The notes beneath the pieces were generated by a model. It did no database searches. It had not been told where the DNA came from and worked only from the letters and a program-made list of their open reading frames with translations. DNA of 64,000 nt from Rhizophagus irregularis (lineage: Eukaryota > Glomeromycota > Glomeromycetes > Glomerales > Glomeraceae), in the NCBI RefSeq assembly GCF_026210795.1, contig NC_089448.1:1302001-1366000 (forward strand). The letters are read 5' to 3'. A program made the position numbers and the translations under genes. Positions 45,492-48,179 of this stretch are shown here, one piece after another; position 1 is the stretch's first letter, and every line of letters begins with the position of its first letter.

Positions 45492-46642
45492 ATGTCCACT
45501 CAAGATATGAATTGATAGGTGCAACAATTAATAGAGCAATGACATTAACAGATGTTAATATTTACAATGATATACACAAAGAATTTGAATTTAAAAAACA
45601 AACAGTCCTTGCTGATAAAATTCTTACAAATGATGAAAAAACTTATGCAATAAGATGGTTAACTAAAGATTATGATCGAGATAGAGTTATGGATAATGAT
45701 GGTACAAAAAGAATTTGTGAAAATTGTAAACAGGAATGTTTAGCCACATTATATTGTGAATATTGTGTTCGAAATTATTTAAAAGAAGATTTTTTCAAAT
45801 TGGACATCTGGAAATGATGATATTGATAATTTAATACAGACATGTCAAATGGAATCACTCATTCCGAATAATATAGTTGAATGGATCCCATATAGTAATT
45901 TAGAAGATATTAAATATTTAACAAAAGGTGGATTTTCTGAAATTTATACAGCAGATTGGATTAATGGAGATTATGATGAATGGGATTCTGTAAAAAAACA
46001 ATTAAAAAGAATTGAAAGACCTGGAATACAAAACATAAGGATGAAAGTAGTACTTAAAACGTTAGAAAATGTTGAAAGTGCAAATCAAAGTTGGTTTGAA
46101 GAGGTTTGTATTATTGTATTCTATATTTTATAAAATTGTTGTAATTTTTTGTATTAACACTAGTATTTTTACAAATTATTATCTTTTAGGCTAAATCACA
46201 TATAACTATAAGTAATAAATGGATGTGTGTTGTTCAATGTTTTGGTTTAACGCAAAATCCATCAAATGGAAATTATATGCTTGTAATGAATAAAATGGAT
46301 ATAGATTTAAGAAAATATTTACAACAAAATCATAATCAACTTACATGGAAAGATAGAATGAAAATTATTTATTATTATATAATTCTTGCACTTTATTATA
46401 TTCATGATGAGAAAGCAATTCATAGAGATTTGCATTCTGGAAATATATTATATTCACAACTTAATGATTCCTGGTATATTAGTGATCTTGGATTTTGTGG
46501 ACCTGCTGATAAATCTTCAACAAGTATATATGGAAATCTTCCTTACATAGCACCCGAAGTTATTGTTGGAAGTGAATATACTTTTGCATCTGATATTTAT
46601 AATTTTATAGTTGCTAGAAAGAGCGTCATTTTCTCTTTCTGA
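45492..46642 (+). pseudogene. Truncated protein kinase with frame breaks
   Basis: From ATG 45492 ('MSTQDM') one base is missing before 'LIGATINRAMT'. The frame then runs through 'KRICENCKQECLATLYCEYC' (Cys-pair motif). A run of six T at 45790-45795 shifts frame before 'NDDIDNLIQTCQM'. The kinase N-lobe follows ('LTKGGFSEIY', 'VVLKTLE'). An intron at 46104-46189 is followed by 'HRDLHSGN', 'DLGFCGPA' and 'YIAPEVI'. Similarity ends abruptly at 'ASDIYN' (about 46604), so the lower C-lobe is missing. With two frame breaks and a 3' truncation it cannot be functional. It is close in type to the kinase part of the gene ending at 33878, but here HRD and a plain N-terminal region replace HCD and the Sel1 repeats. 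Confidence 0.8.
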
Positions 46643-46795
46643 AAATCAATGATTGTTCAAATTGAATCGCGGGAAGTTGGCTATTAATTTTTAAGAGAGT
46701 GATAATTAATTATCTATTTTTCATAATTTTTATTGGTGGTTAGTCTGCAAAATTTTTTATTTATTGTAAATGTAAATTGATGAAAAATAAAGTTT
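46643..46795. other. Spacer and target site of the reverse-strand retroposon
   Basis: No gene. AAAAATAAAGTTT at 46783-46795 is the left copy of the target duplication described for the adjacent element. Confidence 0.5.
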
Positions 46796-46976
46796 TCTTT
46801 TATTTTTATTTTTATTTTCAACGTGAACTAAGCTACAGTACAAATTACAAGGACACTATACTAGAGCCGAAAGTAATTCCATCAAGCTATAAGCCAAACT
46901 GTCACGAAGACGGCGTCGCCTTGGTTGTCCAAACCGGAATCAGTGAGTAATCCCTGAGGGAGAACCCACCCGAATC
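46796..46976 (-). mobile_element. 181-bp SINE-like retroposon, 13-bp target duplication
   Basis: On the minus strand it runs from 46976, GC-richer than its surroundings, to a tail of AAAAT-type repeats at about 46796-46818. AAAAATAAAGTTT flanks it on both sides (46783-46795 and 46977-46989). The last unique bases before the tail, TAGTTCACGT, are shared with the larger retroposon at 47078-48164. A short body with an A-rich tail and a flanking duplication fits a SINE or a 5'-truncated LINE. No clear pol III A and B boxes are seen. Confidence 0.65.
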
Positions 46977-47077
46977 AAAAATAAAGTTTCTTTTTTTCGT
47001 CCGCGTAATTTCTTATATCACGTGAGATCGGCAGTTTGCAATTTATTGGCTGACTATTGTTGATCATCACATGAAAT

Positions 47078-48164
47078 AAAAAAAAAAACTCTTCCCTCTT
47101 TCCGTCTGGAATTTATTATTCCGCAGTATTCAAAAACACTAAATACCTTTCTGCTCTAGATAGGGTAGGAGGTGGGTCCTTTTTGGACTCGGCGGTTAGT
47201 GGTTAAAGAACTTTACTACACTTTACTACACTCTACTCACAACTATGGTCCTGGAACCCTCGGCCTTTCCGCTTATACTCGACGCTCCCAACTACGGCAA
47301 AATACTTTTTGGCTTTCCTTCCTTTAGAGAAACGGGCTTATTTAAACACAACCTTTATAAACTTCAACAACGGCTACTTAACCCTGAGAATATTCCCAGG
47401 AAAAAGAAGACTTCTTTATATAGGGTCTCTTCACGTCACCTAGAACTTTGGATAGAAGACACTTTCGTTCGAAACTTTGACCAACATGCCTTCGACGCTT
47501 TGGCGTTCGCATGGTCACGTGCTAAACGCGACAACTTACCTTTTATGGCTGCATGTAATGTGCATTTCAAGAAACACAAAATCAAACCAACACCAATTAA
47601 ATTTCACGGTACACGAACTCTAACTTCCCATATCAAGATGACCTACCGCGTGGAACATTACCTTCCAATGGTTTGGCAAAAACAACCACGTGATTACACA
47701 AAAAAAGAAAAAATTTTTAAGGATACTTTTTATTCCTTACAGCGTTGGTTATTGGAATTAATACTGCGCTTTTTACACCTTTTATACAATCATACGGTTG
47801 CCACTGAGTCACTTACCAAATACCTTTGGACTCGATCATATAGGTGGCACCTTTATTCGACTCTTCGACCAGAGGACCTCCATACCCCGTATTCTCTAAA
47901 CGAAGGTTTAGTTCGGTATAGGATTTTCGATTCACTTAGACCACGTATAACTTAGTTCTAAAGCCTTTTCTTTGGTTTATTCGGATGTGATGTCGTGTTA
48001 GGGACTCCTCCAAGTGCGTTAAAGGTACCAGAGTGGCGCTGTCCTCGGGCGGTTTGATTATAGCTTAGTATTAGATAGCGTTCGACATTTGTTTTATCTT
48101 TTGTTCTTGTCTATCTTTCTGTAATCTAGTTCACGTGGTTTTTAAAAATAAAAATAAAAATAAA
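47078..48164 (+). mobile_element. About 1.09-kb retroposon with ORF, AAAAT tail and 15-bp target duplication
   Basis: ATCATCACATGAAAT stands at 47063-47077 and again at 48165-48179. Directly before the right copy is a tail of AAAAT repeats. A perfect 15-bp duplication plus an A-rich 3' tail is the signature of target-primed reverse transcription. The body is clearly less AT-rich than the surrounding DNA. It contains one ORF (47245-47955), about 165 bp of leader and about 210 bp of 3' UTR. There is no reverse transcriptase, so it was mobilised in trans. It could be a non-autonomous element or a processed copy of a cellular mRNA. Confidence 0.75.
47245..47955 (+). CDS. Unrecognised 236-residue protein carried by the retroposon
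   Basis: ATG 47245 is the first ATG after the leader and begins 'MVLEPSAFPLILDAPNYGK'. The frame is intact to TAG at 47953. The protein is basic, rich in Arg, Lys, His and Trp, with 'PRKKKTSLYR', 'FVRNFDQHAFDALAFAWSRA', 'HFKKHKIKPTPIKFHGTRT' and 'WLLELILRFLHLLYNHT'. No signal peptide, obvious zinc finger, RT or endonuclease motif is visible. Basic character would fit nucleic-acid binding, as in a LINE ORF1 protein, but this is inference. The codon choice uses far more G and C than neighbouring genes. The intact frame in an otherwise decayed region suggests recent insertion or selection. Confidence 0.5.
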   Translation: MVLEPSAFPLILDAPNYGKILFGFPSFRETGLFKHNLYKLQQRLLNPENIPRKKKTSLYRVSSRHLELWIEDTFVRNFDQHAFDALAFAWSRAKRDNLPFMAACNVHFKKHKIKPTPIKFHGTRTLTSHIKMTYRVEHYLPMVWQKQPRDYTKKEKIFKDTFYSLQRWLLELILRFLHLLYNHTVATESLTKYLWTRSYRWHLYSTLRPEDLHTPYSLNEGLVRYRIFDSLRPRIT

Positions 48165-48179
48165 ATCATCACATGAAAT

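Follow-up and report, generated by a model that had tools for sequence, protein, structure and literature searches.

SINEs with LINE-derived tails carry a borrowed LINE 3′ end. Among fungal elements, MINE of Magnaporthe consists of WEIRD RNA fused to the 3′ part of the MGL LINE, an arrangement explained by template switching (PMC2104539). HeT-A of Drosophila, which serves the telomeres, encodes a Gag resembling that of TAHRE (PMC5537684), and HAL1 (half-L1) of mammals encodes L1 ORF1p and arose several times (PMC5753468). The R2/R1 hybrid SIDEs, which change partner by forming hybrids, take their 5′ portion from one element and their 3′ end from a different LINE; they apparently use the machinery of the latter, and the authors who described them considered DNA recombination likelier than template jumping for such hybrids (PMC3414825).

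Like MINE, the insert described here is fungal and bipartite, its 5′ part being the copy of another transcript and its 3′ part a 5′-truncated LINE end, with one pair of duplications around the whole; the repeats flanking MINE are 10–20 bp long, as are those of the insert (PMC2104539). Whereas the WEIRD part of MINE is described as non-coding, the body joined to the LINE here belongs to a mobile family that codes for a protein and has further copies and tails. HeT-A is similar in being a non-LTR element with a protein but no pol, thought to rely on the reverse transcriptase of another element (PMC5537684), and HAL1 in being a non-autonomous LINE derivative with one ORF (PMC5753468). In contrast to HeT-A, the protein of the insert has no detected LINE relative (two LINEs of the same genome, LINE-A and LINE-C, were compared) and its copies lie on many contigs; unlike the HAL1 protein, it matches neither LINE-A ORF. 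The homology to a LINE ORF1 or Gag that defines HeT-A and HAL1 was not found against LINE-A, nor, by tblastn only, against LINE-C. The R2/R1 SIDEs are short, internally deleted, located at rDNA sites and retain the R2 ribozyme (PMC3414825), whereas the insert keeps a protein-coding body. It also differs from LINE-tailed SINEs, as it codes for a protein and has no tRNA gene or such Rfam match; a short pol III head derived from tRNA, 5S or 7SL RNA is absent from this 1.1-kb, ORF-bearing insert. The combination of an orphan ORF, several LINE tails and a recent swap seems to be new. Our reading, to which we give a probability of roughly 0.8, is that a non-autonomous, protein-coding family dependent on LINEs in trans (family 1) recently gave rise to this full-length copy, which acquired a LINE-A tail through a template switch.

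The insert comprises 1,087 bp (47078-48164, + strand) of the window, that is, of the whole 64,000-nucleotide stretch analysed, and is flanked by a perfect 15-bp target duplication. Its boundaries and coding region are as follows.

47063-47077, no strand: left target-site duplication ATCATCACATGAAAT, an exact repeat, with a rarity control
47078-47088, + strand: A-run forming the 5′ boundary of the insert, from the sequence
47089-47134, + strand: conserved 5′ head CTCTTyCC..CTTTCCGTCTG..CCGCAGTA, common to five family-1 copies, L029 and L030
47245-47955, + strand: intact 236-codon ORF, from the ORF list; native to about residue 222, then LINE
48144-48164, + strand: AAAAT-type simple repeat at the 3′ end of the insert, from the sequence
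48165-48179, no strand: right target-site duplication ATCATCACATGAAAT, an exact repeat

As a control for the duplication, random pairs of 40-mers from the window were compared, skipping pairs less than 100 bp apart, and an exact match of at least 15 occurred in 1 of 5,000 draws. The GC content is 0.394 in the insert, 0.261 in the flank on each side and 0.265 in the window; equal GC richness was reached by 9 of 315 segments of the insert's size (step 200), some of which may overlap the insert itself. The first-pass annotation had reported the perfect duplication, the AAAAT-type tail and the differing base composition, and was right in all three. A tRNA-derived head was rejected, as ARAGORN found no tRNA gene at the insert (0), and two Rfam matches up to E 1 both lay outside the insert and far below the cut-offs, with no match of the SINE-head type at the insert.

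The ORF encodes a basic protein of 236 aa (computed pI 10.0), and its final eight residues and stop correspond, in frame, to the end of a LINE ORF2. Only one other ORF, of 51 codons, is listed inside the insert, and no reverse transcriptase appears in the ORF list. When the insert was simulated by a first-order Markov model, an ORF as long as 236 codons never arose (0/1,000); the longest simulated one had 145. Searches with the 236-aa protein gave no match in Pfam, a best E value of 1 in PDB with nothing in the profile search, and best E values of only 0.045-0.073 in PHROGs and NCBIfam; among viral contigs, 61 pattern matches were obtained, and none (0) was confirmed. The AlphaFold2 single-sequence model, with a mean pLDDT of 43, was too poor to use. 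The earlier claims of an intact ORF with no recognised domain and no reverse transcriptase thus hold, except that the last eight codons and the stop belong to a LINE ORF2; a match to a known protein family, which that annotation had named as the ground for reading the ORF as an ordinary gene, was found in none of Pfam, PDB, PHROGs and NCBIfam.

We searched the insert's own genome (146.7 Mb, 32 contigs) at the DNA level, scoring the best 40 of 75 candidates, and 41 matches were listed. Among the matches listed, two besides the insert are near full-length (L002, 90% identical, and L003, 79%), and two more cover element positions 7-676 and 9-676, both at 68%; at least 36 matches are confined to element 847-1087. 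At the protein level, the genome yielded 15 matches at 13 loci, and a search with a diverged family member 26 matches at 20 loci, giving together 21 loci that hold the protein or parts of it, the window locus included. The frame is intact over most of the protein at three of these 21 loci (the window copy, L002 and L017). That of L014 is open, but is cut at residue 170, while the remaining family-1 matches are partial or carry stops or frame breaks. Two loci, L041 and L042, each hold a 40-aa protein fragment and are about 88-90% identical to each other hundreds of bases downstream; given this shared downstream identity, the fragment may have been captured by a different repeat, to which both loci would belong.

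A script that looks for a direct repeat of at least 10 bp after an A-rich end found such repeats at eight of the 21 loci, with lengths of 15 (window), 17, 16, 17, 19, 11, 20 and 20 bp. In control pairings of the upstream flank of one locus with the downstream flank of another, repeats of at least 15 bp occurred in 0 of 420 and repeats of at least 11 bp in 22 of 420. The seven duplications of 15–20 bp are therefore firm, while the 11-bp one of L015 is weak. At the other 13 of the 21 loci the script found no target duplication, and several of these still have an A-rich end by eye. Since the duplications differ between copies, the copies are separate insertions. Duplications variable in length and sequence, an A-rich 3′ end and some 5′-truncated copies (L026 and L015) are the features of a TPRT retroposon; the lack of a reverse transcriptase, combined with a 3′ end that an autonomous LINE in the genome also carries, is that of a LINE-dependent non-autonomous element. 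By these features, family 1 is a dispersed retroposon family, and the duplications and sequence matches show that the window copy is a member inserted with target duplication. A description of family 1 was not found in the parts of the literature that the search covered.

These copies bear directly on whether the insert might be a processed copy that a LINE moved a single time from an ordinary host gene of unknown function. An intact ORF, a target duplication and an A-rich tail are what such a retrocopy would show. However, the protein occurs at 21 loci, seven of which have their own duplications of 15–20 bp, and several copies have a common 5′ head and tail outside the ORF; moreover, no intron-bearing parent gene was recognised among the 21 family-1 loci of this one assembly (0/21), most of which are broken. 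We consider a retrocopy very unlikely. The first-pass annotation had offered this explanation beside that of a LINE-dependent element with its own basic protein; the former finds no support in these loci, and the latter is supported by the copies' own duplications, the common 3′ end and the existence of a full-length LINE with that end. The copy search it had proposed, run here on the own genome, returned the 21 protein loci, the at least 36 tail-only matches and the differing duplications.

The native part of the ORF looks to be under constraint. Between the window copy and L002, its 222 codons differ by seven synonymous and three non-synonymous changes, giving a pN/pS of 0.12 (bootstrap 0-0.48), or 0.28 if the codons at and past the join are counted. 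The pN/pS values are 0.65-0.66 to L014 and 0.53-0.56 to L017, the synonymous sites of the three L017 pairs being saturated or nearly so; the ratio is below 1 in six of six pairs, with bootstrap upper limits of at most 0.98. This favours selection on the protein while the elements were active, as judged from ten changes between two copies. On the other hand, the ORF could be a chance product or a decaying remnant without function, as the few intact loci (3/21) and a selection signal drawn from few changes would allow. The absence of such an ORF from all of the simulations, a homologue of 35% identity whose frame is intact over 215 aa, and the low pN/pS between the two closest copies over the native codons, with values below 1 throughout, make this very unlikely. 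By analogy with ORF1 proteins, the 236-aa protein may be an RNA-binding, ORF1p-like partner that aids its own RNA; RNA binding is suggested because a basic protein is encoded on a LINE-dependent RNA.

When compared with its sister copy L002 (contig C6), the window copy is 98% identical over element 1-835 and 64% identical over the last 250 bp. The identities are 162/166 for element 1-166, 659/669 for 167-835 and 160/249 for 836-1087. The earlier claim of recent movement is supported by the 98% identity over element 1-835, together with the perfect duplication. The change in identity falls at the following features.

47913-47923, + strand: junction filler of about 10 bp, with no match to the sister copy or to the LINE-A copies found
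47924-48164, + strand: LINE-A 3′ end replacing the family's tail B, from sequence matches and the tail tree
47929-47955, + strand: C-terminus and stop of LINE-A ORF2 (DSLRPRIT and stop), from in-frame comparison

Among the best 40 of 72 candidates, the window tail is matched most closely by LINE-A copies at C4:1322152 (95%), C8:3703703 (94%) and C10:1443732 (94%), and the LINE-A copy L007 is 99% identical over the final 130 bp and 92% over the whole tail. Because the ORF enters the LINE in frame, it uses the LINE stop: the end of the window ORF, DSLRPRIT and stop, is identical to that of the LINE-A copy L005, which reads QSFLDSLRPRIT and stop at this place. An exact donor was sought among the best 40 of 72 candidates and not identified: their tails are at most 96% identical, and the filler of about 10 bp is absent from all of them. 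For this reason, the donor may no longer exist, or the tail may have been swapped indirectly.

In agreement with this division, the body tree (five rows) pairs the window copy with L002 (support 99/99), whereas the tree of the terminal 130 bp places it inside the LINE-A-type tails (support 100/99). The latter has 17 rows, chosen from the loci studied here and including 15 distinct sequences, with an unsettled bootstrap and mostly weak inner branches. A tail tree that forces the window copy, L002 and L003 together was rejected (p-AU 0.0008), and with all six family-1 tails used the p value was 1e-7. The identities and the two trees show the window copy to be a chimera of a family-1 body and a LINE-A tail. 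The first-pass annotation had named a LINE-dependent element as one of two alternatives, but had missed the chimera and the LINE origin of the tail and final codons. This combination of body and tail was found in one copy among the matches listed, which implies that the chimera may never have moved again.

The owner of the new tail stands at C10 as a full-length LINE, LINE-A (L019 with L035). L019 is one of the at least 36 tail-only matches and has a long ORF1, in which a CCHC-like motif was seen by eye. ORF2 is 1,988 aa long, with RVT_1 (E 1.7e-21) as the sole Pfam report, and its endonuclease and RNase H were read by eye from the translation; TATCATTCCTTACCT stands at both LINE-A ends, again by eye. 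Tail B, which the window copy lacks, is common to L002, L003, L015, L022 and L026, at 80-86% identity to that of L002. Given that L022 carries tail B with a protein only 35% identical to that of the window copy, tail B is the older state in the family. The relative age of the tails and the ownership of the new one by LINE-A are shown by these sequence matches. The broken LINE L032, which is 64% identical to LINE-A ORF2 over 475 aa, likewise ends in a tail resembling that of L002, at 78%. In older loci, the ORF is followed by a common 3′-untranslated block and then by further tails.

A third tail occurs in L020 and L021, where the protein extends to residue 170 and is followed by a LINE endonuclease fragment, 46% identical to LINE-A ORF2 165-218. 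The endonuclease fragment keeps the reading frame in L014/L020; in L021, whose protein frame is broken, it does so in the second part. The tail of L020 and L021 is 91% identical to that of another LINE, L044 (LINE-C), of which they hold an internally deleted part. With tail A, tail B and the LINE-C tail, one body is therefore seen with three LINE-type tails.

The passage from protein into endonuclease in L020 and L021, together with a basic protein without reverse transcriptase and a LINE tail, would also be expected if the protein were the ORF1 (Gag) of a LINE that had lost its ORF2, as in HAL1 or HeT-A. Against this, LINE-A ORF1 gave no match to the protein by tblastn or by profile comparison (hhalign), ORF2 gave none by hhalign, and the LINE-C locus had no protein match by tblastn, LINE-A and LINE-C being the LINEs compared. 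In the other family-1 loci, of which mostly about 0.8-1.7 kb of flank was covered, nothing else matched LINE-A ORF2. Since the protein breaks off at residue 170, where the join lies, the arrangement in L020 and L021 looks like a secondary fusion. We consider descent from a LINE ORF1 unlikely.

Under the reading that we prefer, template switching, as suggested by the structure of the copies, would be the mechanism and the LINE-A enzyme the mobilising activity. The family-1 RNA would carry the conserved head at its 5′ end, encode the basic orphan protein in a single ORF and finish with a 3′ end of LINE type, on which a LINE reverse transcriptase can work. The LINE-A machinery would nick the target at ATCATCACATGAAAT and prime there, reverse transcription would start on the 3′ end of a LINE-A RNA, and after about 240 nt the enzyme would jump to a family-1 RNA and copy it to its 5′ end. 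The product would be a bipartite chimera with its ORF closing on the LINE-A stop codon. A template switch would account in one step for the single duplication pair, the filler, the truncation of the LINE part and the completeness of the 5′ head.

The main rival is a join at the DNA level followed by copying: a family-1 copy would have undergone recombination with a LINE-A 3′ end, or inserted next to one, and a transcript spanning both would then have been copied. LINE-A-type tails are frequent (at least 36 tail-only matches), the filler of about 10 bp also fits end joining, and DNA recombination was the explanation preferred for the R2/R1 SIDEs (PMC3414825). However, this course needs a source copy and a single deletion taking out both tail B and the remainder of LINE-A, a second copy with the same join is not among the matches listed, and template switching yields the product in one step. 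A DNA-level swap is accordingly doubtful to our minds, if still a serious competitor.

The 5′ head links family 1 to other elements. Its exact core (47098-47128), CTTTCCGTCTG-N(8-18)-CCGCAGTA, occurs at eight places in the genome, namely five family-1 copies, L029, L030 and C4:4511228, and at none (0) in the reversed control. The A-rich stretch before CTCTTyCC is also present in L029, L030 and LINE-A, while other copies are more variable; LINE-A shares with the 5′ end of the insert only about 15 nt, the first A-run and CTCTTTCC. L030 has a different orphan ORF, of 383 aa, which is 25-26% identical to the ORFs of L010 and L008, both of which have LINE-A tails, and it is flanked by a 16-bp duplication whose copies lie 2.7 kb apart; these three loci, with ORFs of about 400 aa, are taken as family 2. 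L029 carries the head; the family-2 ORF gave no hit there, and a duplication was not found. By profile comparison, the family-2 ORF and the 236-aa protein are unrelated. A conserved hairpin in the 5′ head, which appeared compensatory by eye, was rejected, as 161 of 500 shuffles reached its covariation and pairings slid by -1 to -3 scored higher. Separately, two LINE-type tails stand in tandem at L010:1501-2066, which suggests that one retroposon inserted beside or into the end of another.

Tentatively, these elements might form a class of protein-coding LINE parasites, made up of two orphan ORF families that are unrelated but each include at least one copy with the same head. Such elements would persist by swapping their tails, time and again, for that of the active LINE, and their non-LINE protein would work within the RNP of the partner, where it would either assist the copying of its own RNA or hijack the enzyme. 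We regard such a class as possible, though the odds are somewhat against it.

Just upstream of the insert, on the minus strand, lies a further, smaller insertion (window 46783-46989), with a body at 46796-46976 between two copies of AAAAATAAAGTTT (by eye), an A-rich end towards 46796 and at least 40 further matches in the genome. Its tail resembles the tails of L039 and L040 and a stretch in L004. The window ORF at 46223-46642, which resembles a protein kinase fragment by its HRDLHSGN motif, ends shortly before both insertions. Kinase-like ORFs stand in L021 as well.

A non-autonomous retroposon tied to one LINE should die with that LINE. The best reading of family 1 is that of a protein-coding LINE parasite that changes its partner, probably via template switching. 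As the same body and ORF are found with three LINE-type tails, one of them gained within the last ~2% of divergence, partner switching can be studied directly here. A curated repeat study of Rhizophagus irregularis describes SINE and several LINE groups and reports that two-thirds of the transposable elements were previously unclassified (PMC11075540); elements of the present kind are unmentioned in the portions of that study drawn on here. If a LINE-dependent element encodes a protein unlike both ORFs of the LINE that owns its tail, as here, this would widen the coding range of such retroposons, and, if the host is an arbuscular mycorrhizal fungus, part of the large unclassified repeat fraction described for Rhizophagus irregularis (PMC11075540) could consist of such elements.
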